Below are positions 906 to 42,787 of a stretch of 64,000 bases of DNA, piece by piece. Both the position numbers and the translations under genes were made by a program. The stretch comes from Promethearchaeota archaeon (GTDB lineage Archaea > Asgardarchaeota > Lokiarchaeia > Sigyniarchaeales > SOKP01), in NCBI GenBank assembly GCA_019058425.1, contig JAHPYZ010000001.1, forward strand, positions 9,064 through 73,063, read 5' to 3'. The notes beneath the pieces are model-generated. The model was given only the letters and a program-made list of their open reading frames with translations, had not been told where the DNA came from and ran no database searches. Position 1 is the stretch's first letter. The number at the start of each line of letters is the position of its first letter.

Positions 906-3900
906 GTGGCTGGAGGATTTTCTAAAGAATGGCAACAAGTTATTGACACCAAATCACTTGATAAGATATTCAATAATCCTCAAGTATCAGAATCCACTCA
1001 ACAAAAATTATCAGTTGAACTTGAGAAATTATATCAACAAGTTATTAATGAATTAGATTCAATAATATTGCGTGGGAAAGGTCTTGGTCAATTTGCATAT
1101 GATAATGTTCTTCAGAAATTTGAAAATGATTTAAAATCAATAGTAGAGAACGATAGAAGTAGAACACTTCTAAAAGAAAAATTTGATGACCAAGTTAAAT
1201 CAATACTAAGTGAAAAAGCTATTAATAGCCTTCAATCATGTTTAAGAGGAGCAATTTTAAGCCTTTTAATCGAAAATTCTAAAACAAAAAATCTTCAAAG
1301 TAGTGCGGATGTAGTTCCAGCACTATTAACTTATTTGGAAGGGAATACTATTGTAGGAGACCTTATGAAATCAGCATTAGATGATGTATTTATCTTAGAA
1401 ACTTACGCACAACTCTTTAATCCTTCAAATAAAAAGGGAATAATCACTTATGAATCTACTGTTATTGAACATATTGACTCAATTTCAAGAGCAGAAGTAA
1501 GCCATAATTTTATAGCTAGAATTTTAGGGTCAACTTATAATCAATTTCAAGAAGAGAATATTAAGAATTTTGAAATCAAGGATGGAAATACCTTTATCTT
1601 TTCGTTAGAAAATGACAAAAAAGTTATATTGTTCAATTCTTTAAGCAATCTGAATGGTATCGAGGCTACTCAAGAAGTAACCAAAAATACAATAGAACAA
1701 TTAGCCAAGATTTTCCAAAATGAGTTAATAGTTCAAGACCAACAAACAGAAGCAACTACTTACGAAGCTAATATCAATTTCCTTAATAACAGACATAATG
1801 AAGATGGGTTCACTACATTTGATAATTATTTTGAAGATGTACTGAAAAATTGGAAATCAGCCGAGATTTCTCAATTCATTACAGACGATTTTCAAGGCAC
1901 TCTTTCTAAACAGGATTATTTAATAACAGCAGAAACAATTACCATAGAACAATTAAAAAACCTTGGAATTACTAAAATATTTGATATTCGTGGCAGAGAA
2001 TTATCCTTGAGTGGAGAACTAAGAGGATCTTATAGAATTCTCACAAGTGAAGATGGTAAAAGTCGAGCGCTCATTGAAGTGACTGGAAAAACTGTTACAA
2101 CACCAGAAGGATGGGTCGATGGTATAATACTAGAAGATGATACAAAGATTCCAAACGCCCTTTTGACCAATAAAGAAGGAAACTTACTTTCAAGTAGTTT
2201 CTGTGATCCGTATAACCCTTTAAGATTTAAGTTAAAGAATGACAATTGGCTCGAAATTGAGTTCCTTCAATTCTTAAATGAAGCTGATAAGCATTATCTA
2301 TACTATGATGAGAACGGTAATCCCTGTGGCATGAAATTACTCAGTGTATTTTCGTTTACTGATGGAGATTCTAATTTAAACTTTGAAATGCTTGTGAACC
2401 TCATTAACCCAATATTCAGAACCGACTTACTGAAGTTTGAATTTTCGCAAATTAAACCATATTTCCTTGATATACAAATAAAGCAACAACCAAATATTAA
2501 TAATTTAGATAACATACTGGAAGTTCCTATAGTTAATGAGAAATTCTTAGAAGAACCATCAACAAAAGAAAAAATCTTAGATTTTTACTTATTCTTTGAA
2601 CAGTTCAAACTTTTGGTAAATAATTTAGACCTAGAAGTAAGAGACCTCAGTGTCACTACCGAATTGAGGAATTTACACAATCCAGATGGGACTTATGATG
2701 AAATATATTTTAATGATCTACTCAAAAATAATTTTGAAACTATATCCAAATATTCTTGGTTTACGATTAACAGAAAAAATGAGGTAGAACATTTTAATAA
2801 TTTATACTTTAAAGAATTCTGCAAAACTTATCTTAAATTTATTCAAGATAACCCTGAATTACTAGATAAATATTATTGGCTTTTTTCTCTTGAATTTTCA
2901 GGAGAAAAAGATTTTACAAATGAAGATTTAGCTCTACTCCAATTACTAGATGATGCCATGATTGACATATTTGGTTACGTTAATTATATATTACTCCAAA
3001 TGGGTATGCTAAATTTTGGTAAAGATAATCCTGGTCGATTTTTTAAATTTGGATCTCATATGGATCCAGAACAATATTTAAAGATTTTAAGAAAGACAGG
3101 TATTTCCTGTTTGGATGGTACAAAAATCGATAAAAAAGATTTGAGTTCTGTTATTCGATCCCTTATCACGTTTGGTTTTAAAAGGACTGTGGAGTTTACA
3201 GATGGGACTACTGAAAGCTATATTATTCATCCTCCTAATTCTATTTTTGCTGATATTTTCAATGGGTTCAATCAATATAGCACTGATTCTACTTACCTTA
3301 ATAGGATAAATAATCTCATTGATTCAATAATGCTAAATCTAGGATATCTGGATAATAAATTTTTCAATTCTTTTCTCAGTGATACGAAGACATTGAAAAA
3401 ATTCTTAAATTTACCTATAAAACTGCAACTTGAGTTAAAAAACTTAGGGGGAACATTAGATCAGTTGAAAAGGATAACAACAGAAAAATATGATAATGCT
3501 ATAAAATATTTACAAGGAAAAAACAATTTACTTGATTCAACTCAGAAAAGACGGTTATTTAGAGATTATTTAAGAGATACCCTTTTTGACACACTCCTTG
3601 ATTATTATCTAGATTATGAGACTAAATATAAGAATCACGCAGAATATATAGAAAGCATTAATCCACATCCTTCATTGTCAGATTTGGATAATTACCCAGA
3701 TGATCATAGGCATAGTGCTATGGAGGGGATTCGGTGGAAAAATGATCCTAATATTCAAAGACTTCAACGATTATTTGATGGTATTCTAACTGATTTTAGT
3801 AATCCTCTTAATGGAGAACAGCAAAAAACAATTACATCTAATGGAATAGAAAGAATTGATTATTATAATTATTTGAAATCACCACTTCATCATTGGATGA

Positions 3901-4271
3901 CTGCAATAAGGTATTCATTCCAAGAAACTGGTCATGAAAATAAATATGATTGTCGGGATCTATCTGTTTGGACTATCCCCGCTGAAGGAACATATGGACA
4001 TAATCGAATAACAGGTGAGATTAGTGGGGATGAAACAGGTGCAAGAGGATTATTTTGGGAAAATGAATTTAGAAAGGTTATACCTTTTATACTTGACAAG
4101 AGATTACCACAACGCTGGAGTGATGAATTAGGTATTAAGAATTTCAATGATTATTTAAAAGATAAAGGAAACAGAGATGCAATAGATTTAGTTTTATTAT
4201 TTCTTAGTCATCAAGATAAAAATTATTATAATAGAATAATAAAAAGTGAATTTGAAAGCATAAATACTTGA
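3..4271 (+). CDS. Giant modular protein with ubiquitin-like domain, copy 1 (5' end outside window)
   Basis: The frame is open from base 3. The residues ahead of the ATG at 36 (ATDKNTFKKLL) match the interior of copy 3, so the true start lies upstream of the window. Counting from the ATG at 36, I see a hydrophobic segment at 5-38, a Pro-rich linker at about 66-100 (IPTTPRTPF, NPNPKS), a coiled coil at 138-172 and a beta-grasp domain at about 204-294. That domain shows the ubiquitin order: strand with ISGEETI, helix ELELRIRQMLGF, strand ILIYLENHLKIGE, ENTKIVELIGE, strand LVIYP, ending VAGG. The remaining ~1,100 residues, rich in Asn, Asp and Tyr, match no family I know. They share weak segments with copy 3 (AMIDIFG against ATIEIFG; DENGNP in both). 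The LRR gene starts 51 bases downstream on the same strand. Function unknown; a polymorphic effector is my inference. Confidence 0.75.
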   Translation, partial: ATDKNTFKKLLMSNVFKILTLGTSPFFMGGFTLLGTIQVATNLGGKIIHAPQTISNFRTELQKTKKALQWKHTVKQTALSPNKIPSLWALTGVEIPTTPRTPFVNPNPKSKTGFSVIEEVNNKMQVMQRVLTSHMSAPLMGSPLMSELQFEEQISTIDQNIIESEQLLEQKKEDIEENHQELRVLGKSKEIRINIEEKYKDNPPVLGLPLDTNKISAYIIGTEREKGTIQISGEETIAELELRIRQMLGFSSKLDIILIYLENHLKIGEKFKNTPITENTKIVELIGENPSSNLVIYPQTQVAGGFSKEWQQVIDTKSLDKIFNNPQVSESTQQKLSVELEKLYQQVINELDSIILRGKGLGQFAYDNVLQKFENDLKSIVENDRSRTLLKEKFDDQVKSILSEKAINSLQSCLRGAILSLLIENSKTKNLQSSADVVPALLTYLEGNTIVGDLMKSALDDVFILETYAQLFNPSNKKGIITYESTVIEHIDSISRAEVSHNFIARILGSTYNQFQEENIKNFEIKDGNTFIFSLENDKKVILFNSLSNLNGIEATQEVTKNTIEQLAKIFQNELIVQDQQTEATTYEANINFLNNRHNEDGFTTFDNYFEDVLKNWKSAEISQFITDDFQGTLSKQDYLITAETITIEQLKNLGITKIFDIRGRELSLSGELRGSYRILTSEDGKSRALIEVTGKTVTTPEGWVDGIILEDDTKIPNALLTNKEGNLLSSSFCDPYNPLRFKLKNDNWLEIEFLQFLNEADKHYLYYDENGNPCGMKLLSVFSFTDGDSNLNFEMLVNLINPIFRTDLLKFEFSQIKPYFLDIQIKQQPNINNLDNILEVPIVNEKFLEEPSTKEKILDFYLFFEQFKLLVNNLDLEVRDLSVTTELRNLHNPDGTYDEIYFNDLLKNNFETISKYSWFTINRKNEVEHFNNLYFKEFCKTYLKFIQDNPELLDKYYWLFSLEFSGEKDFTNEDLALLQLLDDAMIDIFGYVNYILLQMGMLNFGKDNPGRFFKFGSHMDPEQYLKILRKTGISCLDGTKIDKKDLSSVIRSLITFGFKRTVEFTDGTTESYIIHPPNSIFADIFNGFNQYSTDSTYLNRINNLIDSIMLNLGYLDNKFFNSFLSDTKTLKKFLNLPIKLQLELKNLGGTLDQLKRITTEKYDNAIKYLQGKNNLLDSTQKRRLFRDYLRDTLFDTLLDYYLDYETKYKNHAEYIESINPHPSLSDLDNYPDDHRHSAMEGIRWKNDPNIQRLQRLFDGILTDFSNPLNGEQQKTITSNGIERIDYYNYLKSPLHHWMTAIRYSFQETGHENKYDCRDLSVWTIPAEGTYGHNRITGEISGDETGARGLFWENEFRKVIPFILDKRLPQRWSDELGIKNFNDYLKDKGNRDAIDLVLLFLSHQDKNYYNRIIKSEFESINT

Positions 4272-4322
4272 GTTTAAATGATTCAAATCCTAAATATAAA
4301 CTAAAAAAAATACATTTATATT

Positions 4323-5162
4323 ATGTCAGAAAGAATTTTCAAAGGAAAAGATCGTGCTGGAATTTCACTAGAAGAGTTAGACACTATAGAAGAAATTGAG
4401 ATTGGTGCAAAAGAAAAAGTATTTTTAATTGTAAATAAAGAAAACAAAATTCTTGAATTAGAAATTAAAAACTGTGGAATTACACATATTCCTAAAAGTG
4501 TCCAAAACTTAAAGTATTTGAAAAGTATCATAATTGATGATAAAAGTTTAAAATTTTTCCCTAATTCAATTGGAAACTTGTCAACTTTAGAAGAAATAGT
4601 TATTTTTGCAAGCAGTATTAATTTAATTCCTAATACTATCAATAAACTATATACATTAAAACATTTGCGTGTCGCAGATAGCTACATTAAAGAGTTTCCA
4701 AAACAAATTTGTCAAATTGTAAATTTAAGAACATTAAGCTTAAATTCAAATCAGATCACAAATATACCTGAATGTATATACGAGCTTAGTAAGTTAGAAA
4801 ATTTTTTCATCAATAATAATAAAATAAGCTCTCTCCCCGGTTCCATATGCACCCTCGAAAATTTGCAACAACTATCAATTGAAAATAACTTATTGACAAA
4901 ATTACCTTCAAATATAGGCGATTTGAAAAATCTTCAAAGTCTAAAATTAGGGCATAATAAGCTGGAGTCCCTGCCCGAATCATTTCAAAATTTTAAATGG
5001 TTGGCGGGTTTAAATTTAAATAATAATCGTTTTAAAGAATTTCCAGAAGTTTTAAAGAAGTTAAATCTGTATGAGCTGGATTTATCTGGTAATCTATTTA
5101 AAAACTTCCCAAAAAGTCTTCCTAAAGCTAAATACATTGGAAATGGACGTTATATTGGATGA
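4323..5162 (+). CDS. Leucine-rich repeat protein
   Basis: A 279-residue protein made almost entirely of ~23-residue leucine-rich repeats of the IPxxIxxLxxLxxLxLxxNxL type. About nine repeats run from residue 55 to 265 (for example NLRTLSLNSNQITNIP, NLQSLKLGHNKLESLP). The first 50 residues are a short acidic cap (SLEELDTIEEIEIG). No signal peptide or membrane helix is visible, so it is probably a cytosolic binding protein. It follows copy 1 of the giant gene by 51 bases on the same strand and may be co-transcribed. It ends in TGA, after which the same frame stays open for 156 codons that resemble a toxin-type deaminase. The position between an effector-like gene and a toxin-like fragment suggests an immunity or recognition role, but that is inference from position only. 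Confidence 0.85.
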   Translation: MSERIFKGKDRAGISLEELDTIEEIEIGAKEKVFLIVNKENKILELEIKNCGITHIPKSVQNLKYLKSIIIDDKSLKFFPNSIGNLSTLEEIVIFASSINLIPNTINKLYTLKHLRVADSYIKEFPKQICQIVNLRTLSLNSNQITNIPECIYELSKLENFFINNNKISSLPGSICTLENLQQLSIENNLLTKLPSNIGDLKNLQSLKLGHNKLESLPESFQNFKWLAGLNLNNNRFKEFPEVLKKLNLYELDLSGNLFKNFPKSLPKAKYIGNGRYIG

Positions 5163-5630
5163 AAACTTAGAATTTTTGATGAAATAGGTTCCACTATAGA
5201 AATATTCAATAGACTTCGCCAAGAAGAGGGATGGGTATCTACTTTTAGAAAAGATTCTGGAAATATTGCATTTTTAAAGTTTAAATTTAGATGTTCTGAT
5301 AGGACTGTTAGGTCTGAATATTTTTTTACTCACAATCGGATTCAAATTATGCCTGATATAGTAGCAACAAAGACACCAAAATCTTATTATAAACCCCTTG
5401 GGGGTGACTACTATTTAGATCCAACCCATTGGGCAAATAAATTTTTTCCAGCTTATGAAGTCAATGGAAAATCCCGTCATTCAGATAGTGAAAGAAAATT
5501 AATCTTAGCATTTCTTGACCAATTTAACCATCTTCTACCATATTTAATCGAAGCAGAGATTGAACTATATTCCGAGCGATCATTTTATCCATCATGCTTA
5601 GACTTAATAGCTATGTTTAAAGAAATGTAA
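5163..5630 (+). pseudogene. Fragment resembling a polymorphic-toxin cytidine deaminase
   Basis: The frame is open from the LRR stop codon (TGA, 5160-5162) to TAA at 5628-5630 but has no ATG, GTG or TTG until the ATG at 5349. From that ATG the 93 residues contain HSDSERKLI (44-52) and, 22 residues later, ELYSERSFYPSC (72-83) followed by LDLIAMFKEM. This order resembles toxin deaminases of the cytidine deaminase superfamily, where an H/D-x-E helix is followed by a strand and an LYTExPPCpSC helix. The first zinc cysteine would be Tyr80 (codon TAT, 5586-5588), reachable from TGT by one transition; Cys83 is kept. The stop falls four bases before copy 2 of the module begins. I read it as an orphan, probably inactive toxin tail. 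The family call is from motifs only. Confidence 0.45.
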
Positions 5631-5633
5631 AAG

Positions 5634-6043
5634 TCACTCTTTCAGCCCAACAAAAAGCAGAAATTTTCTCAGAGTATAAGATATCCCAAGAATTACTCAA
5701 GTCTCAAGAAGCTACTGATAAGAACACCTTTAAGAAATTCTTAATGTCCAACGTATTCAAGATTTTAACATTGGTACCTCTTCTCTCTTTATGGGCGGAT
5801 TTACTCTGCTTGGAACTATACAAGTAGCCAAAAATTACGGAGGGAAAATTATTCACACTCCGCAAACAATTTCAAATTTCCGCACTGAGCTTCAGAAGAC
5901 GAAAAAAGCACTTCAATGGAAGCACACTGTCAAACAGACCGCATTAAGTCCCAATAAAATACCTTCTCTATGGTCTCTCACAGGGATAGAGATCCCTACC
6001 ACTCCAAGAACACCCTTTGTTAATCCCAATCCAAAATCTATAA
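5634..6043 (+). repeat. Conserved module, copy 2 (partial direct repeat)
   Basis: Corresponds to 7371-7784 of copy 3 and, from 5705, to 1-340 of copy 1, with scattered third-position differences and one base missing near 5773. It starts and ends without any neighbouring similarity, so both edges are probably recombination points. Confidence 0.85.
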
Positions 6044-6933
6044 CTCAGCTTTCTGTTATTGAGAAAGTATCACAAAAAATGCTTGAATCCCCCCAAGAAC
6101 ATTTTAACACTCAATTTGATACTTTAAAGACTCAAAAACAAAAGTCAGTAAATTTACTAAAAAATCTACAAAAACTTAGATCAATCCAAGGAAAGGTAAA
6201 TTCAGAGTCTGATTTCAATGAAAATTCCTTTGAAATTTTTGTAGCAGAAGCTGCCGTGAAAGCTGACCCCGTTGTAGAAATAAACGGCATGAGAATATGG
6301 ATTCAACCGCTTCGTCCTGAGGATTATAACTTAAAAAAAGGAATGACTTTAAATGACTTTTTAGATCTAATAGGTGTACTAAATGATCCTGCAAGACAGG
6401 CAGTAGTTAATGGTTATAGACTCCAAGAAGGGACAGAAATTCTCACTGAACAAGGAATCATTCGATTAGATGGAAACATGCTTCTTGTTGAGGCATTAGA
6501 TCTTGTGGGATATGAAAGAACACCAGCTTCCTTATTACTTCAATATCATGGCATTGAACCTTGTATTTTAGTTGTAGATATTGATAACCAAATAAATCCT
6601 CAACGGATTTTTGAAGAGCAGGTTGCTAACATTAATGAAAGGATTTTAGAACAATTCCACATAGATATGGATTATTTATTAGATTATATATCTGAATTTT
6701 ATATCTTAAGAAATGTCCAACCTTATCAAAAAATCAATTTTTATAGAAAATTTCTGCAGGTATATGAAAAACTAAAATTAGATTTAGAATATACGTTTAA
6801 TCTCCCGATATCAGATATAATTTATAATAAGCTCTTAAATAGCTTACCAACCGATCCAGAATTTGAATTTACCAAGCCACCAAGCAACTTCCCACGTACT
6901 TCAAGATTATATGAATGTATATACGCATGCTGA
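5634..6933 (+). pseudogene. Giant modular protein, copy 2, truncated and frameshifted, with MoaD/ThiS-like segment
   Basis: Bases 5634-6043 repeat the conserved module, but the copy begins abruptly in its middle (TLSAQQKAEIF) right after the deaminase-like fragment. It has lost one G at 5771-5775 (TTGGTAC where copies 1 and 3 have GGGTAC or AGGTAC), which breaks the frame before the hydrophobic segment. Downstream an intact frame runs from ATG 5791 to 6933 (380 codons). Counted from that ATG, the tail after residue 84 differs from copies 1 and 3. It has a predicted coiled coil at 105-132, then about 160-240 a segment with TLNDFLDLIG, AVVNGYRLQEG and RLDGNMLLVEAL, which matches the helix, VNG strand and DGD-type strand order of MoaD/ThiS proteins. 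The last codons overlap the start of copy 3 in another frame. Expression of a short product from 5791 is possible but unsupported. Confidence 0.6.
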
Positions 6934-7696
6934 TGTTGCTGGAATGATGACCGCTGAGATCGGATACACGGGGATTATGACTACGATCTCTACAGCTATG
7001 AGCGTCGCTTTAATTGCATTTGGTTCATGGACTGCCTCTGCAATTGTAGGTAAATTTGTGGAAGCAGGCTCTCAATCTGCTGCGGCGCAAGCGTTATATA
7101 CGCTTACCAAAGGTATAACTTTAACTTCAATCGCTAAGGGTGTAATTAGAGGAGTTGTAGAGGAATCATATGAAGAAATAGTGTTGGACGGACTTATCGA
7201 AGCTGTTATCGAGAACGCTATTGAGACAGATTTTGGCTTTTGGCTTTCAAGCCTTCTCACTTCTATCCGTGAGACCGCAAGTGGCACCGCTCAGCGTAAT
7301 AGAGGTCAACAATTACAGCTTTCAAGGGTAGATCAATTACTTTCCATGCAATTAGCTCCTGAAGTAGTAGCCACTCTTTCAGCCCAACAACGAGCAGAAA
7401 TCTTTTCAGAGTATAAAATATCCCAAGAATTACTCAAATCTCAAGAAGCTACTGACAAGAACACCTTCAAGAAACTCTTAATGTCCAATGTATTCAAGAT
7501 CTTAACCTTGGGTACATCTTCGTTCTTTATGGGCGGATTTACTCTGCTTGGAACTATACAAGTAGCAAAAAATTTAGGCGGGAAAATTATTCACACCCCA
7601 CAGGCAATTTCAAATTTCCGCACCGAACTTCAAAAGACAAAAAAAAGCACTCCAATGGAAACATGCTGTCAAGCAAACCGCATTAAGTCCCAATAA
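6863..7696 (+). CDS. Giant modular protein, copy 3, 5' part before the frameshift
   Basis: This 277-codon frame (TTG start; ATG at 6911 is an alternative) carries the longest version of the conserved module. It has a hydrophobic Ala/Gly/Ser-rich stretch at about residues 27-62 (MTAEIGYTGIM, VALIAFGSW), a conserved-looking EESYEEIVLDGLIEAVIENAI helix pair, a polar region with QLSRVDQLLSMQL, and a second hydrophobic segment after MSNVFKIL. It then runs out of frame at an eight-A run (7639-7646). Copies 1 and 2 have six A after ACG in the same place, so copy 3 holds one extra base. Removing it joins this frame to the 7758-12464 frame as ALQWKHAVKQTALSP. The upstream boundary is uncertain because the frame overlaps copy 2, and some of the true N-terminus may be missing. 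Confidence 0.6.
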   Translation: MNLPSHQATSHVLQDYMNVYTHADVAGMMTAEIGYTGIMTTISTAMSVALIAFGSWTASAIVGKFVEAGSQSAAAQALYTLTKGITLTSIAKGVIRGVVEESYEEIVLDGLIEAVIENAIETDFGFWLSSLLTSIRETASGTAQRNRGQQLQLSRVDQLLSMQLAPEVVATLSAQQRAEIFSEYKISQELLKSQEATDKNTFKKLLMSNVFKILTLGTSSFFMGGFTLLGTIQVAKNLGGKIIHTPQAISNFRTELQKTKKSTPMETCCQANRIKSQ

Positions 7697-8360
7697 AATA
7701 CCTTCTCTATGGGCTCTAACAGGGGTAGAGATCCCTACCACTCCGAAAACACCCTTTGTGAATCCCAATCCAAAATCGAAAGCTGGTTTTTCAGTTACTG
7801 AAGAAGTATCTACTAAGATACAGGTGATGCAACGAGTTTTGACCTCTTCTATGACTGCTCCTATCATGGGAAGTCCCCTGATGTCTGAATTACAATTTGA
7901 AAAACAAATATCCACAATTGATCAATTCATTATAGAAAGTGAACAGCTTTTAGAACAGAAGAAAGAAGACATTGAAGAAAACCATCGAAAGCTAAGAGTT
8001 TTAGGTAAAAGTAAGGAAATACGTATAGATATTGAAGAGAAATATAAAGATAAACCTCCAGTTATGGGGATACCTATTGATACCAATGAAGTCTCAGCAT
8101 ATATTATCGGTACCGAAAGGGAAAAGGGAATAATTCAAATTAGTGGGGAAGAGACAATTGCGGAACTCGAACTTAGAATTCGTCAAAAATTAGGATTTTC
8201 TAGCAAACTAGATATAATATTAATTTATGAAGAAAATTATCTTAAAGTGGGTGAAAAATTCAACAATATACCTATAACTGAAAATACCAAAATAGTAGAT
8301 TTAATAGGCGAAAATCCGATCTCAGACTTGGTGATTTATTCTCAAGCTCAGATAGCTGGT
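7371..8360 (+). repeat. Conserved module, copy 3 (long direct repeat)
   Basis: Matches 1-905 of copy 1 and 5634-6043 of copy 2. It is the only copy with the upstream hydrophobic portion of the module inside the window (6911-7370). The close DNA match to copy 1, compared with tails that share no obvious DNA similarity, indicates recent duplication or ongoing gene conversion of the module alone. Confidence 0.85.
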
Positions 8361-11300
8361 GCTGAGAAAGATTGGGAGATTAAATTAAATGATTTAAAAG
8401 ATGCATATCAACCAAGTGCTGGAGTAATTGATATTGCGGAGTCTTTTACAGAAAGATTTTATAAGATTATGAGAAATAATCCTGATAATTTCTTTACTGT
8501 TTTTGATCGAAAAGAGTTTTTTACTGAATATCTTAGAGATTTGGATATTTTAGTTAAAGAGTCTTTCAATATTTTTGAAAAAAACGGATTTTATGGTTTT
8601 ACTAAATCTTTGGAAAATTTATTAGTTGAAAATGCAAGGAAACTTGATTCTACAATTACTAAAGGAGATGATAAATATAACCAGATAGTGAGTGAAGCTA
8701 AAGAGATTACTAAAAGAATTCGAGAAAGTTACCAAAATACCGAGAATCCAGATGAGGTCATAAAACATGCTATTTTAACGGGTATTGTGAAAGAGATTTG
8801 TGATTTTTGTGAAGAAGGTGAACTTTCTCCTGCAGACTCTAAACGAGATGAGACTTTTGATTTGTTGAAAAAGAATTTGTGCTATTTTAAGGAGAATAAA
8901 TATTTTGAATCAAATCAATTTATTACATTATCAATTCTGTCTTGTACAACTCATACATTCGCCGTATCAAATGATAATCTTTATGTTCAAGAAGGTTTTG
9001 ATTCAGGAACAGAATTAGAAGTATTTTCCATAACAGAAATCCTTCCTCAACAGCAAATTTGGATGTTAGAAAACAAATATAAATTAGTTGATTCGATCCA
9101 GTCTAGAATTCATGATATCAATGTAGAAAATACAATAAAAGTATTTAAATTCGGTCCAGCAACTTTAAGGTCTACATCAAGAATCCTTTCTGATGATGCT
9201 GCTTATTTTGATGTGGGAAAATTTTATTATCAAAATGATAAAGGAGAGGTATGTATAGTCTATATGCCAAATAAAAATTCAATGGGGATAGATAAAGAAC
9301 AGATAGACGGAAGTGTCGAGAATGTTCTTAGAGCAGTATATGAAACAAACAACGATATGATTGAGGGAAAGATTCCAAAGGCATTAAAGACAGAAGTGAT
9401 ATTAGTAGCACCTTTCTTTAGTCAAGAAAGTATTTATAATACTTATATTTCATTTGGAAATAATTACCTTCCCAAAGTAGCTAAGGGTGTTGATTTAGGG
9501 ACAGGGTGTTGGCAAGAGTCTAGAGAAAGATCGAAAGGGAAATTATCAATTTCAGATGGACATAAATTCAATAGTATTAGTCAAATAAATGAAATTTTGG
9601 GATTAAAGGAGGATTCTAATGATGAGATTTTCACACAATTTGAAACCGACTTTTCTAATAGATATTCAAGATCCACTGATGATTTTATTCCAAATTTAAT
9701 TGGTAATTTAGAGCAATATTGGGGAATCCAATATAATTCTAAAGGTGAAAAACAATTTGGACTTACACTTCAAGGATCTATTCGAATGTACATGGATACA
9801 GGGCAAAAATTAGAAGTAGAGCAAATAAAACCATTCTTGGATGCTGAGGAGGGTCTAAAGAATATTAAATTAAGTGAAGATGGTAAACACATAGATGAGG
9901 CATGTGTTCTTGGGTTTAAAATGGATGAGAATGGTAATCCAATTTACCGCTTTTTCAGTGTTCAAAGAATAAAGGATGGATTACCTAGGGATAGTGTATG
10001 GCAGTTAGGTTATCCAAGAATAATCAATCATAATGAAGAATCAGGGAAAAACACTTATAATATCATTCCTCAAGTAGTTATCACTTATGATAACGGACAT
10101 ATTTTACGAGGAGAATATGCTTTACATGAAACGGATTATTTTATTGTTAAGGATGGTATTTATCAATTACAAAATTATGGAGAAAAATGGTGTACACCTG
10201 ATAAAAATTCTGAAGAAGACTGGTTTGAGAAGAATATTTTGGAGGATTATAGGAAGGAAAAATATGGATTTAAAACCCTTTTTTATGAGGTAACTCGTTA
10301 TGGTAATTTTTATAAAATTTTAGGAAATGAACTCGATTTAACTACCATGAAATTGAAATTTGATATTAATAGGCTTTATAATAGAGACAGATTTAAGGAT
10401 GAGAGTTTTGAGAAAAGGTCGCTACCTAAGAGAAGCTTTATACCTGCTTTCAGCTATTTTAGGGAATATCCTATTACTGAAGAACTAAATAATTTAATCA
10501 TTGATTTGAGGAAAGATAATTTACTACCAATTTTTGATCTTGCTAAAGAACAATACGAATTTCTATCAAGCGGTACTACAATTTCAGATATTTTACGGAT
10601 AGAACCGGTAATATTAAAGGTTTTAAATTCATATATCGATGAGAGTGGTTTATTACATGAAGGGCAAGGGTATAATGAGTTAAATTTTCTTTTCAAATAT
10701 TTTATTGGGCTTACGAGAACTCAAATTATATGTTTCAATACCTTCCATTCTCGAGTTAATAATCCAGGATCAAGTAATTTAAAATTTAATTTAAAGCAAT
10801 CAGATAAAGACTGGTTTAAAGCAATACTTGATGCATTTCAATCATATGAGAGCCCCCCTGATTTGATAAACCCCACTTTAAAACAATTAGATAAAAAGAT
10901 ATTAGAATGGAAAATGCGATTCATTAAACCAAATGGTAAGAACAGAATTTTTTCTGATGGTCCAGATTTGAAACAATATGATAAATATGAGGATGGAACT
11001 TTGGCAGAATTAGTATATGAAGCTACAATTGAAATTTTTGGCAGATTTACTTTTTCTAGTATGATTAGAGGAGGTATATTTTTTGATGGTCAGTCAGTTG
11101 ATTTCATTAAATTGAGTTTGAATACCTATAGACAATCCTTTATTCATAATAATAGATTGATGTTGGACTTTTTTTCAGTTAAGAATCAGCTATTAGGAGT
11201 CCCTCCAGCATTACAAGATTCTGAAAGTTCGCTGCCTTATATATTCTATAGCATAATGTTTGGTCCAATATGGAATTTGAAAATTATTCAAGAACTCAAC

Positions 11301-12464
11301 GAGCAATCTGAAGATCTATTACTTAGAACTCCATATATTCCAACAGATTATTGGAATCCTTCGTTTGTTAGTGATCGCGATATTATTAGCAGATTAGGTT
11401 ACAATGAATTAGTTCCATATTCTAGCTTTTTGTGTACTTATCTATCAGATATTTTTAATTTTAAAGCGAGTGTTCAAAGATATGATCTCTCAGGAAAGAT
11501 AAATATTAGAGATACAACACGTATATTATTAAATTATATATACTATAAATTTAAGGAGGGAGAAACCATTAAGAAATATACAGGGGAGAATAAAGATTAT
11601 TATTTAAATCTTGTTGAGGTTGCTCTTTACAATCTTCTATTCTTAAGAACATCTGAAGAATATAATAAGGAGAGAAGTAAAATTATGGATTTCTTAACTG
11701 GTAAAATTGATACAGTAATTATATCATTAAGAGATTTAATATTAGAGTCAGAAGTTCCTGATATATTTAAGTCTGTTACCTTAACTGAATTAGATCGCGT
11801 TCATTGGAGAGAAAGCGGAACTTATGAAATGTTTATCAAAAATTTTAGAGTCAATGTTAGAAAGGCGGTAGATTTAAACCCCTTAACTATAATTAATGCT
11901 TTAGAAGAACCAATCTCAAGATTTGGCAAAACAATAAAGGATCTAGCAATTAGATATGCCAATCCTAATGTTGGAAATTCTATGAAATTATATATTATTC
12001 CATTGACTGAATTCTCCCATGGTAGAACTCAATCAGTGTCTCGAAATCACCAGAATAAATATTTAATGACTGCTAAAGATACAATTTCTATTAGTGGCAT
12101 TACTTGGTATTGTTGGGAACTTGATGGAACCAATAAAGCTAGTTTAGACAGATTTAAAAACAATTATAATTTTATGTTATGGTGTCTCCTCGAAGGGCAA
12201 GTAGCTCTTTCTATTGTTGCTCGAGATGAAGTTACTGGAGAGATTATCCATGTTGGCACATTTAATATTCTTACTGGAGCGTTAGAGCTAAATCAAATTT
12301 CTCCCTCAGATAGGAGAGATTATAAGACAATCACATATACAACAGAGTATGACATGCAATTTTCTGATGAAATTAATTTAATTATGGAATTATTTAGACA
12401 AATTTCTTTACCTTTTGTAACGGCAAAAGAAGATAATATTAAACTTTATAATTTTATTTTTTAA
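7758..12464 (+). CDS. Giant modular protein with ubiquitin-like domain, copy 3, main part
   Basis: A 1,568-codon frame from a GTG at 7758. The same frame is readable upstream from 7647 and carries the expected linker residues, so this is the 3' part of a gene split by the 7639-7646 run of A. Residues 45-85 form a coiled coil, and about 113-202 are the ubiquitin-like beta-grasp domain (ISGEETI, ELELRIRQKLGF, ILIYEENYLKVGE, ENTKIVDLIGE, LVIYSQ). Here it ends AGAEKDW, with Ala in place of the second Gly of copy 1. The rest (1,360 residues) matches no family I recognise. No signal peptide is visible. The stop codon lies six bases from the end of the convergent LRR gene. If the extra A is a sequencing error or is bypassed by slippage, the whole protein would exceed 1,830 residues. 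Confidence 0.65.
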   Translation: MNPNPKSKAGFSVTEEVSTKIQVMQRVLTSSMTAPIMGSPLMSELQFEKQISTIDQFIIESEQLLEQKKEDIEENHRKLRVLGKSKEIRIDIEEKYKDKPPVMGIPIDTNEVSAYIIGTEREKGIIQISGEETIAELELRIRQKLGFSSKLDIILIYEENYLKVGEKFNNIPITENTKIVDLIGENPISDLVIYSQAQIAGAEKDWEIKLNDLKDAYQPSAGVIDIAESFTERFYKIMRNNPDNFFTVFDRKEFFTEYLRDLDILVKESFNIFEKNGFYGFTKSLENLLVENARKLDSTITKGDDKYNQIVSEAKEITKRIRESYQNTENPDEVIKHAILTGIVKEICDFCEEGELSPADSKRDETFDLLKKNLCYFKENKYFESNQFITLSILSCTTHTFAVSNDNLYVQEGFDSGTELEVFSITEILPQQQIWMLENKYKLVDSIQSRIHDINVENTIKVFKFGPATLRSTSRILSDDAAYFDVGKFYYQNDKGEVCIVYMPNKNSMGIDKEQIDGSVENVLRAVYETNNDMIEGKIPKALKTEVILVAPFFSQESIYNTYISFGNNYLPKVAKGVDLGTGCWQESRERSKGKLSISDGHKFNSISQINEILGLKEDSNDEIFTQFETDFSNRYSRSTDDFIPNLIGNLEQYWGIQYNSKGEKQFGLTLQGSIRMYMDTGQKLEVEQIKPFLDAEEGLKNIKLSEDGKHIDEACVLGFKMDENGNPIYRFFSVQRIKDGLPRDSVWQLGYPRIINHNEESGKNTYNIIPQVVITYDNGHILRGEYALHETDYFIVKDGIYQLQNYGEKWCTPDKNSEEDWFEKNILEDYRKEKYGFKTLFYEVTRYGNFYKILGNELDLTTMKLKFDINRLYNRDRFKDESFEKRSLPKRSFIPAFSYFREYPITEELNNLIIDLRKDNLLPIFDLAKEQYEFLSSGTTISDILRIEPVILKVLNSYIDESGLLHEGQGYNELNFLFKYFIGLTRTQIICFNTFHSRVNNPGSSNLKFNLKQSDKDWFKAILDAFQSYESPPDLINPTLKQLDKKILEWKMRFIKPNGKNRIFSDGPDLKQYDKYEDGTLAELVYEATIEIFGRFTFSSMIRGGIFFDGQSVDFIKLSLNTYRQSFIHNNRLMLDFFSVKNQLLGVPPALQDSESSLPYIFYSIMFGPIWNLKIIQELNEQSEDLLLRTPYIPTDYWNPSFVSDRDIISRLGYNELVPYSSFLCTYLSDIFNFKASVQRYDLSGKINIRDTTRILLNYIYYKFKEGETIKKYTGENKDYYLNLVEVALYNLLFLRTSEEYNKERSKIMDFLTGKIDTVIISLRDLILESEVPDIFKSVTLTELDRVHWRESGTYEMFIKNFRVNVRKAVDLNPLTIINALEEPISRFGKTIKDLAIRYANPNVGNSMKLYIIPLTEFSHGRTQSVSRNHQNKYLMTAKDTISISGITWYCWELDGTNKASLDRFKNNYNFMLWCLLEGQVALSIVARDEVTGEIIHVGTFNILTGALELNQISPSDRRDYKTITYTTEYDMQFSDEINLIMELFRQISLPFVTAKEDNIKLYNFIF

Positions 12465-12470
12465 ATTTTA

Positions 12471-13838
12471 TCACATTAACATAAAAAGCCCTTTCTTTTT
12501 AAGAAAGTCTATGGTTGTTTTATCTAAGGGGTTATTCGCTACATAAACCATCTTGAGTTTTTCTAGATTTTCGAGTGATTTAATGGGAAGTGTACTTAAA
12601 TTATTCCACCCCAAATGTAAGATCTTTAGATTTTTTAAATTCTCAATAGAATTAGGAATTGATTTTAAATTATTTGCTCCTAATTCTAGTGTCTCAAGCA
12701 ATTTTAAATTCCATAGGGATTCTGTTAATTTTAATTTTGGATTACCCCATATCGAAAGATTTCTTAAAGAATTTAAGTTTTTTATCGATTTGGGGATTTT
12801 GTGTAAATTAATATCATATAAAATCAGACTTTCTAGTTTTGTTAACTTACTGATCGATTCGGGTAAATTCTTTAATTCTAGTTTTCCAATAATTCCAGCT
12901 GATATGTCAACTCTATAATCATTTTTTTTTTCAATTTCATTCCCATAAACTGCAATTTCTATAACTTTTCTATTTTCAAATCTAAAGACCATAGGTCCAT
13001 AACTCGTGCTAATTTTCTCTATAGGTTTAAAATATTCAAAATCATCTAAATTTTCTTTATAGATTCTTTTCCCATCGTCTATATAATACTTTTTTATTTT
13101 TTTTTCTATTAATTCTAGTATTTCACCATCAGGACCGAACAAATTCCAAAAATCTTCTCTTGTTATATATCTTAAATAATTTCCTTCATAAAAAAAGTAA
13201 GCATCGTAATTTAGATTGGAGATACTTTTTAAAATATGCTTTTTCAGAGTTTTTAAAGCTTTCTCATCTTTTTTTTCAACAAGCTTCTTTAATAAGGTAT
13301 ATTTAACGTCTAAATATATATCTCGAGTCTTAAAACTTTTTTCTTTAATATCTTTTATGACAAACCATATTTCTTCTTCATTAAGATAATCAATACATTC
13401 TTCTTCAAAAAAGAATTCTATTACTGGATGATATCCTATGATAAGTCGTTTTATTAACTCCTCTTTAAAAACTTGCTTAGCTAAATGATCTCCAATATCT
13501 GTTAACCTTTTTAATAAGGGAAATGCTAGATTGGAATGAATTAAGCTAATATCATAATTATATTCACACCACACCTGTAAATTACTACAATGAGCCCAGA
13601 ATTCAACCTCTGGAGATATATCTATTCTTTTTAAAGGTTTTCCATTCTCTAAAGAATGATCTAATAATTTTGACGCATCATCTATAGATTCAGCGTTGTT
13701 AAAAGTAAGTGTGTCATGTATTGGGATATTTAATAATAAATATTTGCATTGTAGAAATCTTTCTCCAGCTACAAATAAAACTGTTTTTTTATCTTCTAAT
13801 TTCAATGTAATAAAATTATTCACTTGAAATTCTTTCAT
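12471..13838 (-). CDS. Leucine-rich repeat protein with alpha-helical N-terminal region
   Basis: A 455-residue protein, convergent with giant copy 3 (six-base gap). The C-terminal third (about 320-450) has five to six leucine-rich repeats (KLESLILYDINLHKIP, LETLELGANNLKSIP, LKILHLGWNNLSTLP). Residues 90-270 are helical and charged, with acidic/aromatic helices such as PVIEFFFEEECIDYL and Lys-rich helices that could form HEAT-like repeats, though the periodicity is not clear enough to assign. There is no signal peptide or transmembrane helix. It is longer than the other LRR protein of the locus (4323-5162) and resembles it only in the repeats. Together the two LRR genes bracket copies 2 and 3. 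Binding or immunity function is a guess from context. Confidence 0.85.
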   Translation of the reverse strand: MKEFQVNNFITLKLEDKKTVLFVAGERFLQCKYLLLNIPIHDTLTFNNAESIDDASKLLDHSLENGKPLKRIDISPEVEFWAHCSNLQVWCEYNYDISLIHSNLAFPLLKRLTDIGDHLAKQVFKEELIKRLIIGYHPVIEFFFEEECIDYLNEEEIWFVIKDIKEKSFKTRDIYLDVKYTLLKKLVEKKDEKALKTLKKHILKSISNLNYDAYFFYEGNYLRYITREDFWNLFGPDGEILELIEKKIKKYYIDDGKRIYKENLDDFEYFKPIEKISTSYGPMVFRFENRKVIEIAVYGNEIEKKNDYRVDISAGIIGKLELKNLPESISKLTKLESLILYDINLHKIPKSIKNLNSLRNLSIWGNPKLKLTESLWNLKLLETLELGANNLKSIPNSIENLKNLKILHLGWNNLSTLPIKSLENLEKLKMVYVANNPLDKTTIDFLKKKGLFMLM

Positions 13839-13954: not shown

Positions 13955-14380
13955 AAATACTCAAATCTTATTCAATTTTCAAACCTACTCAGAGATGAAA
14001 GCAGTTTTGAAGTATATACGCGAAAAATTGGCAATACTTTTCGTGATTGGGGAATCTCTACACCAGTTAGCATAATAAATGTAAGAGAAGTTACTAATAA
14101 ACTTATAATTGGAACTGGTGGTTTGAGAAATGGAATAGATATTGCCAAAGCAATTGTTTTAGGAGCTGATATTGGTGGTTTTGCATTTAAATTTTTAAAA
14201 ACCGCATGGCAAGATTATGTCAATAATACTCAAATAAATTCTATAAAAGAAATAAAAACTTTGAAACAAGAATTAAGATCCTCTCTATGGTTAATGAATG
14301 TTGGAAATATTGGTGATCTCAGAAATAATAACAACAAAAGAGTTTTATTGGGTGAATTATATCAATGGATAAATCAATGA
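13955..14380 (+). pseudogene. Remnant of type 2 isopentenyl diphosphate isomerase (C-terminal third)
   Basis: The frame is open from just after TAG at 13952 and reads TFRDWGISTPVSI, then IGTGGLRNGIDIAKAIVLGADIGGFAFKFL, the FMN-phosphate-binding glycine-rich end of type 2 (FMN-dependent) IPP isomerase, then a helical tail LRSSLWLMNVGNIGDLR. The intact family is about 350 residues. Only about 140 remain, with no start codon before the TTG at 14123, and the N-terminal half of the barrel is missing. It sits at the border between the giant-protein locus and the isoprenoid genes, so arrival of the accessory DNA may have destroyed the 5' part. It probably once belonged with the polyprenyl synthase and reductase genes downstream. 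No functional product is expected. Confidence 0.8.
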
Positions 14381-14422: not shown

Positions 14423-14809
14423 TTATTCTGGCTTCTTTTCTATAGAATCCTCGATTTCTTGCTTAAAATCAGAAAAAGCACCAATTTTACCTTTAAAGGT
14501 TTTTAGCTTTTCAGAATATAGTTTAAAAAATTTTTTTGATATCTTTTTTAATTCTTTACTTACTTTTTTTTGATTGACTTCTCTAGAGGAATTCGCTACA
14601 AATACAAGCCCACTCTGCTTTATTATGGTAAATCTTGTATTTTGTAATTCAAAGTTTGACATACCTCCCTCAGCTAGTTGTTCAGCAAAATGATCTAAAG
14701 CACTCATCATTGCTCCAAAAAGTTGAGGGGATACAGCTTTATCATATTCTCTATGGAATATAACTATCCCCGATTTTTCTAATATCCAAATATCTTGGAG
14801 TACTTTCAA
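14423..14809 (-). CDS. Longin-like domain protein
   Basis: 128 residues with the alternation expected of a longin or adaptin-sigma fold: two strands (IWILEKSG, IVIFHRE), a long helix (PQLFGAMMSALDHFAEQLA), three strands (MSNFELQNTRFTIIKQSG, LVFVANSS), then a basic helix pair (VSKELKKISKKFFKLYSEKL) and an acidic tail. Longin domains are found in eukaryotic SNAREs, adaptor complexes and GTPase-regulator complexes, and are known to be expanded in Asgard archaea. There is no membrane anchor, so it is a free soluble domain. The soluble tails of the two seven-helix proteins at 32357 and 33669 share the same layout. The fold call is from pattern, not alignment; a roadblock fold is the main alternative. 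Confidence 0.65.
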   Translation of the reverse strand: MKVLQDIWILEKSGIVIFHREYDKAVSPQLFGAMMSALDHFAEQLAEGGMSNFELQNTRFTIIKQSGLVFVANSSREVNQKKVSKELKKISKKFFKLYSEKLKTFKGKIGAFSDFKQEIEDSIEKKPE

Positions 14810-14948
14810 TAAATATCCTCCTTAAAAAAATCGATATAATCTGAAATGGGATTCATTAAATTATTTATGTTAACAAAATTATTAATTGTTATTAAGATTT
14901 TACGATACTTAATTGCGTGAAACAGTCGGTAATTACAAATATAAATTC

Positions 14949-15506
14949 TTATCTTTTGGAGTCATCTCCCCACCTTTTTATATCGCTTTCAATTCCTACA
15001 TGGTCTAATATTCTACCAACTGTGAATTCAGTAAGTTCCTCTACACTTTGTGGTTTAATATAATAAGATGGGATGGGAGGTAAAATAATGACTCCAATTT
15101 TTGCTAATTTAAGCATATTTTCAAGATGTATCGCACTGAAGGGAGTCTCTCTAACAATTAGCATTAGTTTTCTCTTTTCTTTTATCATTACATCTGCGGC
15201 TCTAGTAATCAAATTATTTGCATATCCATTCGCAATTGCGGATAATGATTTCATTGAACATGGAATGACAATCATTAAATCCTCTTTATGGGATCCACTA
15301 GCAGGAGGGGCTAATAAATCATCAGCATCATAATTGGTTTCTGCTAATTTTTGAATATCAGAGATTTTATAATCAGTTTCAACAGTAATCACTTTCTCTG
15401 CATTTTTTGAGATAATTAACTCTGTCTTGATTTTTTTATCCCTCAGGGTTTCAAGAAGTTTAATAGCTAAATCAATTCCAGTGGCTCCAGTAATGGCAAT
15501 TAACAT
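14949..15506 (-). CDS. ubiX: UbiX-type flavin prenyltransferase
   Basis: 185 residues, the usual UbiX/Pad1 length. The family joins dimethylallyl phosphate to FMN to make prenylated FMN, the cofactor of UbiD decarboxylases. The N-terminal MLIAITGATG is the flavin-binding start, IPCSMKSLSAIANGYANNLITRAADV matches the conserved PCSM...GxxxxLixRAAdV core, and IVRETPFSAIHLENMLKL matches the RETPls.ihl.Nm element. No UbiD partner is inside the window. The isoprenoid neighbours (polyprenyl synthase, geranylgeranyl reductase, idi remnant) fit a link to quinone or lipid metabolism. Confidence 0.93.
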   Translation of the reverse strand: MLIAITGATGIDLAIKLLETLRDKKIKTELIISKNAEKVITVETDYKISDIQKLAETNYDADDLLAPPASGSHKEDLMIVIPCSMKSLSAIANGYANNLITRAADVMIKEKRKLMLIVRETPFSAIHLENMLKLAKIGVIILPPIPSYYIKPQSVEELTEFTVGRILDHVGIESDIKRWGDDSKR

Positions 15507-15603
15507 ATATTATTAATTCAATAATGATTTTTAGCTCTTATCATTTATGTTAATGAAACAAAAGAGAATGATAAATAGAGGGAGATCTTTTAACTCTATA
15601 TAT

Positions 15604-16020
15604 TTAAATAGTGGCCTTTTGATCTATATGAGCTAAAATGTCATTAAAATCAGAAAGATCAAAAGGTTTTTTTAAATAACCATCAGCTTTTGTTTCTAGT
15701 GTCTTAATAGCGATCTCTGCTTCGGGAACACCAGTAAAATAATAAATAAGCGTGTTTCTTTCTTTTTCAGTTGCTTTCACCCTTTTACAGAACTCATAAC
15801 CGTTTGAACCAGGTAAATTTACATCTAGAAATATTAATTTTGGTGAATGTAACTCTAACTCTCTCTCTGCTTTTAAAAGATTATTAACCGCTTTACAGAT
15901 AAATCCTTTTGATCTTAAAATTTGAGTTATTAAATCTATAATATATTTACTATCATCCACAATGAGAATGTCATAATGATTATTCTCCATATTTTTATCA
16001 TTTGTACTCAAATCACTCAT
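15604..16020 (-). CDS. Stand-alone response regulator (receiver domain)
   Basis: 138 residues consisting of one CheY-like receiver domain: acidic pair D22/D23 (VDDSKY), phosphoacceptor D66 (FLDVNLPG), switch threonine T96 (YYFTGVP) and conserved lysine in YLKKPF (117/118). No DNA-binding or enzymatic output domain follows. The frame could start at the ATG of residue 1 or 11 without affecting the domain. No histidine kinase lies in the window, so its partner must be encoded elsewhere. It is flanked by isoprenoid genes on the same strand, but gaps of about 100 and 160 bases speak against a tight operon. Confidence 0.93.
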   Translation of the reverse strand: MSDLSTNDKNMENNHYDILIVDDSKYIIDLITQILRSKGFICKAVNNLLKAERELELHSPKLIFLDVNLPGSNGYEFCKRVKATEKERNTLIYYFTGVPEAEIAIKTLETKADGYLKKPFDLSDFNDILAHIDQKATI

Positions 16021-16181
16021 CTTCTAAAATTTTGTAAGTTAAATCGCTAATATAACATTATTTTAAGTAGAATATACATATTTCTAACAAAAGAAGTATT
16101 ATATAAAGTTGAGTTTTTTGAAAAAGTTGAGTAACAAGATCATGAAATTATATAAAATAGGATCTTTTACCCATATTTGTT

Positions 16182-17249
16182 TTAGAATTTTCTCTCAACA
16201 ACAAAATTTAATAAATTTTCAAAGAATTCAATTTCAGACTGATTGATACTATTACTTAGTTTATCAAGTGAGAGTTTTGCTTCATTGTAGTATGATTTTG
16301 CTAAATTTTTGCAAGAATTTAGGGCATCTGCTATTAGAAATAAATCTTTAATTTCTTGAACATCCTTTTTTGTAATATTTGGATTTTCGATAAGTTTTTC
16401 TAATCGATTCTTATCTCCCTGATCTAATTTACTCAAGGCTTCAATTAGCAAGCAAGTCTTTTTCCCTTCTATTATATCAGAATCTGTTGGTTTTCCAGTA
16501 ATTTTTTCATCCCCAAAAGTTCCCAAAATATCATCAATTATCTGAAATATTATCCCTAGATTAGTACCATAAGTGGAGAGATGTCGCCTATACTTTTCAT
16601 CTACTTTAGTATAATTTGCACCTATTAAAATAGATTTTTCAATTAGTGCTCCTGTTTTAAGTGAAATCATTTTTATATAATCTGAAATTGTAAGATTCCT
16701 TTGATTTACCATATCCGTTTCTATCAAAACACCATCTGCTATCTCTATAAAGGCTTGTTCATAATATTTAATTGCGTTCAAGTTAAGGTCTTTTTCAAAC
16801 TCGTTGAAAAGATACGCTTCTAAACCCAAGAAAAAAGCAGAATCACCTCCAATAATACCTATTGAATTACCATAATCGGTATCAATCATCTTCTTCAAAT
16901 TGTATTTCTGATGGTAATTATGGAATCGAAAATGAAAAGCAGGTTTTCCTCTTCTAAAATCATCTTTATCGATAATATCATCATGAATTAAAGAAGCATT
17001 ATGAAGAAACTCTACTCCAATGCTAGGGAGAACAATCTTATCATCATGTTTATCATTGAAAGCATTAAAAGTAGCAATACATAATAATGGTCTAATTCTT
17101 TTTCCCCCTGATAAGAAGTAATCTTTTAATTCTGAATAATAGTCTTTCAGAAAAGGATTTTGCACACTATCTAATTTTCGGTCATAGATTATTTTGATAG
17201 AGTTATTTATTTTAGGAATATAATTCTTTGAATATTCTATAAACTTCAT
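16182..17249 (-). CDS. Polyprenyl (geranylgeranyl-type) diphosphate synthase
   Basis: 355 residues of the trans-isoprenyl diphosphate synthase family, which condenses IPP onto allylic diphosphates and in archaea supplies C20 or longer chains for ether lipids. Visible motifs: GGKRIRP (48-54), first aspartate-rich motif HDDIID (89-94) followed by RRGKPA, KTG (198-200), second aspartate-rich motif QIIDDILG (236-243), and KPTDSDIIEGKKT. All catalytic aspartates are present. Product length cannot be fixed from sequence alone. It lies 138 bases upstream (in its own direction) of the response regulator and follows geranylgeranyl reductase on the same strand, as expected for a lipid-biosynthesis neighbourhood. 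Confidence 0.93.
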   Translation of the reverse strand: MKFIEYSKNYIPKINNSIKIIYDRKLDSVQNPFLKDYYSELKDYFLSGGKRIRPLLCIATFNAFNDKHDDKIVLPSIGVEFLHNASLIHDDIIDKDDFRRGKPAFHFRFHNYHQKYNLKKMIDTDYGNSIGIIGGDSAFFLGLEAYLFNEFEKDLNLNAIKYYEQAFIEIADGVLIETDMVNQRNLTISDYIKMISLKTGALIEKSILIGANYTKVDEKYRRHLSTYGTNLGIIFQIIDDILGTFGDEKITGKPTDSDIIEGKKTCLLIEALSKLDQGDKNRLEKLIENPNITKKDVQEIKDLFLIADALNSCKNLAKSYYNEAKLSLDKLSNSINQSEIEFFENLLNFVVERKF

Positions 17250-17387
17250 ATTATGTCACAAATTTCAATTGATAAAAGAATTTTATAATCAGTATACTAC
17301 ATTTTGTTTGATAAAATAAAAGGAATTTCAGATTTTCAATACTCTTAACATTTAGAAAAAAAAAAAACAAACTAATTTTCCATTAAT

Positions 17388-18506
17388 TTAAATTAATTTT
17401 TTCATAACAATTTCAGAACTACGATGTTTTTCCCAAAGTCTGAGGAAATTTTTTAAACTCTCATCATTTTGGAATATCTGATCACGAGCTATTCGTTTTG
17501 CTTTAAGAACACGGAGAAATTTTCTATCTAAGTTTTTCTCATAAACGGAACCAAGTTTATTCATCTTATCCCTTTTTTCACAAGATTTAATAGTCTCAAT
17601 TGCGATTTGACCACTCATCATTGCGTAAGGGATTCCTTTACCACTAATAGGATCCACAATCCCCCCAGCATCACCTACTGCAAATACATTGTCTTCATAG
17701 ATTTTAGGTCTTAACCCTACTGGAATGAGGTGAGGTTTGAAAATCTTCAATTCAGAACCTTTAATAGCGTTTCTAACAAATGGAAGATTTTCAAATTTTT
17801 TAAACTCTTCTCTAGAATTTTTAACTAGGTTTATTTGGTTACCCCATCCTACCGTAATTGTTTCTGCCTTTGGAAATAGCCAAGCATAACCAATAGGAAT
17901 AAGATTTTTTATACCAAAAAATGCATGTATTGCATCTTTACCCAACTTTTGCTCAATAATATCACTAGAGATTTTCATTTCTTTAGTAATTGTCAGTATT
18001 ATATTCTTCTTTTCGAAATATGGCCATCCTAATAATTTTAAAGTTGTAGAAGTGACTCCATCGCTAGCAATGATGTATTTTGCAGTGTACTTTCCCTTTT
18101 TAGTGCTAACTCTATAAAAATCATCTCTTTTTTCAATTTTAATTAAGGGTTCATCTTCTTTCAATAATACTCCACTTTCAATTGCCATATCGCTTAGAAA
18201 CTTATCGAATACATTTCGCCAAATTGTAGCTCCTTTTCCCTTCTTAGAGGATCTCTCCCCGTCAACATGATGAAGTTCCAATGATTCAAAATAACGGCTA
18301 ATTTTGTCTTCTGGATAATCAATCTCTTCAATTAACTCCAAAGCTATAGCGCCACCGCATGCTTTATACCGTCCTTTATCTCCAATTATATCTTTTTCAA
18401 TAATACAGGTCTTATATCCATTTTCAGCAGCTATCTTTCCCGCAATGGAACCTCCAGGACCTGCCCCTATAATAAATACATCATAATCTAGGTTTAAATT
18501 TTTCAT
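17388..18506 (-). CDS. Geranylgeranyl reductase family flavoprotein
   Basis: 372 residues. The FAD-binding Rossmann motif FIIGAGPGGSIAGKIAAENG starts at residue 12, the second flavin motif is FAVGDAGGIVDPISGKGIPYAMMSG near 275, and YKACGGAI matches the conserved Cys-Gly-Gly of archaeal digeranylgeranylglycerophospholipid reductases. These enzymes saturate the isoprenoid chains of archaeal membrane lipids. No transmembrane helix is present, so the protein is peripheral or soluble. It lies directly upstream of the polyprenyl synthase gene on the same strand, so the pair covers chain synthesis and reduction. Confidence 0.92.
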   Translation of the reverse strand: MKNLNLDYDVFIIGAGPGGSIAGKIAAENGYKTCIIEKDIIGDKGRYKACGGAIALELIEEIDYPEDKISRYFESLELHHVDGERSSKKGKGATIWRNVFDKFLSDMAIESGVLLKEDEPLIKIEKRDDFYRVSTKKGKYTAKYIIASDGVTSTTLKLLGWPYFEKKNIILTITKEMKISSDIIEQKLGKDAIHAFFGIKNLIPIGYAWLFPKAETITVGWGNQINLVKNSREEFKKFENLPFVRNAIKGSELKIFKPHLIPVGLRPKIYEDNVFAVGDAGGIVDPISGKGIPYAMMSGQIAIETIKSCEKRDKMNKLGSVYEKNLDRKFLRVLKAKRIARDQIFQNDESLKNFLRLWEKHRSSEIVMKKLI

Positions 18507-18595
18507 AATTAATCAAAATACTTATGTTAAAAAATATAGAATATTCAACCCTTTTTAAGCAATTTCAAACAATAGAAATTATTAATATAATGAAA

Positions 18596-42717: not shown

Positions 42718-42787
42718 ACGGTTTTCTATTTATAATACTATATAATTTTACTACTATATTATTATTTTGACTTTCACAAATAAAAAG

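Follow-up and report, generated by a model that had tools for sequence, protein, structure and literature searches.

An IPK-IDI2 fusion gene cut short beside a giant-gene locus in a Lokiarchaeia assembly: probably an assembly gap with a false or strain-mixed join

The locus

The window, a stretch of 64,000 nucleotides, is positions 9064-73063 of contig C64 (125,880 bp) in an assembly of 143 contigs and 4.64 Mb from a lokiarchaeal member of the Promethearchaeota (listed as 97.6% complete and 7.4% contaminated). The features that matter here lie in its first 19 kb:

1..12464, + strand: giant-gene/cassette array with repeated N-terminal parts and differing C-terminal parts; an LRR gene lies within it at 4323-5159
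12471..13838, - strand: LRR protein gene, of a family whose members come immediately after the giant gene in two relatives, G015 and G035
13955..14380, + strand: open frame for the last ~130 residues of an IPK-IDI2 fusion, stop included (IDI-2 profile positions 232-333)
13985..13997, no strand: breakpoint, where ipk-idi2 homology starts; no N and no repeat found
14423..14809, - strand: longin/roadblock-like small protein, a conserved neighbour of ipk-idi2 in relatives
14949..15506, - strand: UbiX-family flavin prenyltransferase (TIGR00421, 251.2 bits)
15604..16020, - strand: response regulator receiver protein, syntenic in several relatives
16182..17249, - strand: polyprenyl synthetase (PF00348), with matches at 18 of the 20 loci from relatives
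17388..18506, - strand: geranylgeranyl-reductase-like flavoprotein (GGR_cat below cut-off)

The fragment

The frame of interest comprises 141 codons (13955-14377, + strand) free of internal stops and is terminated by TGA 14378-14380. It matches the NCBIfam profile for type 2 IPP isomerase, TIGR02151, at positions 232-333 of 338 (E 5e-24, 84.9 bits) and has GTGGLRNGIDIAKA, the FMN-phosphate motif GG(L/I)R.G. The original prediction, that this is the C-terminal part of a type 2 isomerase and that part only, is thus correct. The score is below the full-length criterion (curated cut-off 281.3 bits). The predicted lack of an N-terminal half and of a start also holds: nothing of profile positions 1-231 is present, and the fragment's frame has no in-frame ATG, GTG or TTG upstream of TTG 14123. 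Isomerase homology begins abruptly at ~13985-13997, inside the frame open from 13955, so that the first ~12 codons of that frame are foreign.

What is left amounts to ~37% of the IDI-2 domain and ~20% of the ancestral fusion of ~637 aa; the N-terminal substrate-binding and catalytic region is absent from the window and from the rest of the genome. Among the solved structures of the family (2ZRU, 1P0K and 1VCF under TIGR02151), 2zru_A aligns with the fragment over residues 244-351 (E 5e-14). Like type 2 isomerases in general the fragment has the FMN-phosphate motif in the form GTGGLRNG; unlike the intact enzyme of a relative it is without the NRK..EH start and the HLN..E region. Its amino-acid identity to the corresponding genes is 57-80% across 20 relatives' loci, far above chance.

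A kinase-isomerase fusion in relatives

Isopentenyl phosphate kinase (IPK) produces IPP from isopentenyl phosphate. IPP is isomerised to DMAPP by IDI-2, an FMN enzyme, and DMAPP primes polyprenyl synthase for membrane lipids. The two activities are encoded together in many relatives. An IDI-2 match above cut-off is present in 45 of 58 genomes (the present one counted among the 58), and among the matches listed the frame is 630-641 aa long in at least 15 genomes. The 637-aa protein P0002 of G002 begins with an isopentenyl phosphate kinase domain (NF040647, 220.6 bits; cut-off 120) and ends with an IDI-2 domain (351.7 bits). A second collection of 40 lokiarchaeal loci, with fusion status called from frame length and the IPK motif, divides into 20 fusions, 17 unfused frames with at least 236 upstream residues and three cut by a contig end; ipk-idi2 or IDI-2 is truncated inside a contig in none of the 40. 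[Fusions occur, for example, at L048, L049 and L060, and neighbouring unfused genes elsewhere, for example in G030 and G024.]

The fragment's best matches among the 20 relatives' loci are IPK-IDI2 fusions and, since fusions are also common in relatives, the ancestral gene here was such a fusion; some fifth part of it is left. The gene was originally named as plain idi, which is right for the C-terminus of the product and wrong for the gene as a whole. With P0002 the fragment is 78% identical over 130 common residues. Like the Lokiarchaeia fusions it ends LYQWINQ and has similar right-hand neighbours and gene order; unlike them it has neither the IPK domain nor the N-terminal part of IDI, here or elsewhere in the assembly. 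Among the papers listed by a literature search that took in IPK-isomerase fusions and the Asgard mevalonate pathway, with most subscription journals outside its scope, none describes this fusion, and this is no proof of novelty.

The mevalonate cluster and its absent middle

In close relatives the cluster order is uppS / HMGS, HMGR, UbiD, AcnX, MVK, IPK-IDI2 / longin, UbiX, polyprenyl synthase, with IPK-IDI2 the last gene of the mevalonate cluster proper. The genes of G002 run uppS (minus), HMGS, UbiX (minus), HMGR, UbiD-family decarboxylase, AcnX large and small subunits, mevalonate kinase and IPK-IDI2, after which a longin-like gene, a response regulator and polyprenyl synthase follow on the opposite strand. 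[UbiX, which in G002 comes after HMGS, is beside the longin gene in the window and in other relatives.] The assignment of AcnX as phosphomevalonate dehydratase and of UbiD as anhydromevalonate phosphate decarboxylase is from context, and the AcnX small subunit was recognized by eye; PMC10040528 and PMC9385802 served, in part, as reference for the pathway. Additional cluster genes at L048:7676-8704 and L056:2410-3618 resemble, by eye, mevalonate-pathway decarboxylases, despite the UbiD/AcnX route.

The window genes right of the fragment, 14426-18512, are syntenic with this isoprenoid block in relatives, and UbiX, polyprenyl synthase and the geranylgeranyl reductase are retained intact. The left side has no such synteny. 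The fragment stands, as originally proposed, at the junction of an isoprenoid block and an accessory locus, and relatives with an intact gene beside the isoprenoid block and no giant locus, which had been suggested as a check, were found.

The other end of the cluster is on another contig. C45 (9735 bp) has uppS, an intact open HMGS of 562 codons and, up to where the contig ends, codons 1-16 of HMGR; its last 131 bases contain MKEFHSDISGFYKLSL, the very sequence with which HMGR begins in G010 and G015. These two genomes are the nearest relatives both of the C45 genes (80-94% identity) and of the fragment with its isoprenoid neighbours on C64 (79-90%), and in both of them genes of the C45 type and those of right-hand C64 flank one uninterrupted cluster. 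(A GH38-like gene farther right on C64, at 59-61% to G010/G015, departs from the pattern.) Of 17 relatives' loci, 12 have 6.7-7.1 kb between the start of HMGR and the breakpoint position; over all 17 the figure varies from 3.7 to 9.7 kb.

The corresponding ~6.7 kb is absent from the assembly. No HMGR was found in it beyond the 16-codon start on C45, no IPK or IDI N-terminus and no genus-type MVK, only weak GHMP kinases; thus the whole middle of the cluster is missing and not just half of idi. Recovery of an upstream part by correcting the assembly had been named as what would overturn the idea of a decapitated gene: C45 supplies the first gene of the operon and the start of HMGR, and the middle is still wanting. 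A length cut-off is ruled out as the cause, for contigs of ~3 kb were retained (5 of 12 sampled, the smallest 2,989). The GHMP kinases on C109, C121 and C27 were considered as replacement mevalonate kinases and dropped (25-38% identity); that of C109 and one of G007 are, by eye, in sugar-kinase/nucleotidyltransferase settings, and similar matches in G007, G022 and G035 were inspected.

These last three genomes (98%, 99% and 79% complete, respectively) have no match for HMGR (Pfam model), IPK-IDI2 or uppS. G007 and G022 are also without the cluster-type polyprenyl synthase, and that of G035 (L145) has different left neighbours. The gaps may reflect missing contigs or rearranged clusters.

Other routes to DMAPP in the genome

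Another IPP isomerase had been expected elsewhere in the genome. None was found: by profile search the fragment is the sole IDI-2 in the 4.64 Mb assembly, and the region of TIGR02151 that it lacks, positions 1-231, gave only a chance-level match (E 0.26, positions 20-76, in a 507-aa frame). Matches to TIGR02151/PF01070 besides the fragment are FMN-family relatives only. For type 1 IDI (TIGR02150) the one candidate is a weak Nudix match of 35.3 bits against a cut-off of 105.8; it lies in a 384-aa frame (L047, G000:C88:23693-24091) that combines a Nudix domain with what resembles, by eye, a nucleotidyltransferase. IspH of the MEP pathway is absent from all eight genomes examined, this one included.

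The left-hand locus

The contig begins with a giant-gene tail cut at its start (C64:1-8963), which is followed by a 100-N gap (C64:8964-9063) and then by the cassette array and LRR genes. The repeated N-terminal parts of the array are 64-93% identical in DNA. From its architecture the locus looks like one of polymorphic-toxin type; Pfam detected no toxin domain in it. Window positions 6839-7693 have matches in 12 further genomes; five of these carry the matching region, which lies before the variable C-terminus, in a frame of 11,376-14,833 aa (G014:C3, G015:C47, G035:C21, G002:C7 and G029:C69). The LRR gene at 12471-13838 is 42-51% identical to its G015 and G035 counterparts over the N-terminal part, and since its family adjoins the giant gene in those genomes it belongs to the left-hand locus. 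An LRR gene is directly behind the giant frame in G005 and G029 also (1,036 aa of the G005 frame was seen).

Giant gene and mevalonate cluster are on different contigs in G002, G005, G013, G014 and G015, and left of the fragment only LRR-family genes have matches in the relatives' mevalonate cluster loci. A short LRR-family remnant (L049:840-1073, minus) lies between uppS and HMGS in G002, and G025 has an LRR gene near uppS. The deletion from HMGS to IDI, starting from an upstream LRR gene, at which these two genomes hint was ruled out, the uppS-HMGS spacer of C45 having no LRR gene; that the LRR gene usually adjoins the giant gene also counted against it.

By eye, what follows the giant locus is a different set of genes in each of the six relatives inspected. 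With different genes around it in each, the giant locus changes place. Genes that flank it in relatives gave no informative match when looked for in selected stretches of the present genome, and a viral collection contained neither the exact junction sequence nor any relative of the LRR gene, of a 1568-aa frame or of the fragment. In tetranucleotide usage the left half is less typical than the right, as are the relatives' giant genes, and the comparison is not informative. Asgard mobile elements termed aloposons are described, in the part of PMC8813620 consulted, as tandem giant genes of 3,000-6,000 aa with integration at tRNA genes. In broad description the present locus resembles them: its giant genes, too, belong to an Asgard archaeon, and their sites vary. 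It is unlike that partial account in that no tRNA is at the junction (the only one is tRNA-Leu, 42787-42872) and that the relatives' giant frames reach 11,376-14,833 aa.

Has the fragment decayed?

The fragment has no stop or frameshift. Where the other 19 sequences all agree, it alone departs once (for each of the others the corresponding count is 0-3). Its pN/pS against eight relatives is 0.20-0.30, and among those relatives 0.15-0.26; mild relaxation would also produce the slightly higher values. In relative-rate tests against G015 it exceeded 3.84, and so differed significantly, with two of eight outgroups; of five genes on C45 and C64 used as controls, none exceeded 3.3 (a sixth, with no G015 match, was dropped). 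On these figures the tail evolved within a functioning gene, and any recent relaxation would be slight.

What happened at the junction

The beheading is probably a matter of an assembly gap and a false or strain-mixed join, and not of loss of the enzyme. The fragment would be the 3′ end of a functional IPK-IDI2 gene, the last of a mevalonate cluster, in the living archaeon. The right part of C64 would be one end of an intact cluster and C45 the other, and the ~6.7 kb missing between them would exist in the cell and run into the fragment. The left part of C64 would be foreign to the cluster, and its attachment at ~13990 either false or due to mixed strains. If C64 is misjoined, the true neighbour of the cluster should end on another contig, and C45 does so at HMGR codon 16. 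Repeats abound in the left-hand locus, and the scaffold that carries it is already interrupted by 100 N, which also counts for a misjoin. A misjoin of the simple repeat-driven kind is unsupported, since neither N nor a repeat was detected at the junction: no 16-mer is common to the junction region and C45. Against an artefact weigh also the retained ~3-kb contigs, by which length filtering fails to account for the missing 6.7 kb, and the slightly higher pN/pS of the fragment. The three other genomes without HMGR likewise weigh against it, and make real loss of the pathway in the family conceivable.

It is possible, though unlikely, that the giant-gene/LRR locus was really inserted into ipk-idi2, or moved there by inversion or translocation, in this lineage or one of its strains, the N-terminal part and the remainder of the operon lying unassembled beyond the left end of the contig. 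C64 is continuous across the junction, where no repeat accounts for a misjoin; the changing gene context of the giant locus speaks for a mobile position; and the slightly raised pN/pS of the fragment fits. The original prediction went further in having accessory DNA enter at this point. At the one border available there is no terminal repeat, target duplication, integrase, transposase or adjoining tRNA, and C45 holds the head of the operon as far as HMGR codon 16, which together count against entry here. Such a rearrangement would moreover inactivate the sole IDI-2 of the assembly, would leave the failure to assemble the 6.7 kb as a separate coincidence, and is at odds with the lack of clear decay. 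The bolder form, a real junction within the only IPP isomerase gene of a lineage or strain that gets its DMAPP without a known isomerase, is improbable.

Real deletion from HMGR to IDI, the cell using another isomerase or importing isoprenoids, is more doubtful still. An assembly that lacks HMGR, IPK, genus-type MVK, a complete IDI-2 and IspH is what it would leave, and the absence of HMGR from G007 and G022, at 98-99% completeness, is in its favour. Deletion would, however, fuse C45 to C64; instead C45 ends within HMGR with no new sequence, and the left of C64 is unrelated. Intact UbiX, polyprenyl synthase and geranylgeranyl reductase would also make little sense without precursors. That the frame is translated as a small protein of 85-141 aa with its own role is scarcely credible: open frame, possible TTG start at 14123 and conserved FMN-phosphate-loop motif notwithstanding, it is the last part only of a TIM-barrel enzyme, with no catalytic part and no start near the limit of homology, and no other short version occurs within a contig among the 40 lokiarchaeal loci.

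Implications

With an assembly gap and a false or strain-mixed join as the probable origin of the cut gene, this assembly provides no evidence for a Loki archaeon without IDI, nor for an integration site of the giant locus, and a false lead is removed. In work on the left-hand accessory locus, C64 should be handled as two pieces parted at ~13,990. The natural IPK-IDI2 fusion of many Lokiarchaeia is a concrete, testable candidate for a bifunctional enzyme of two steps in the archaeal mevalonate route.
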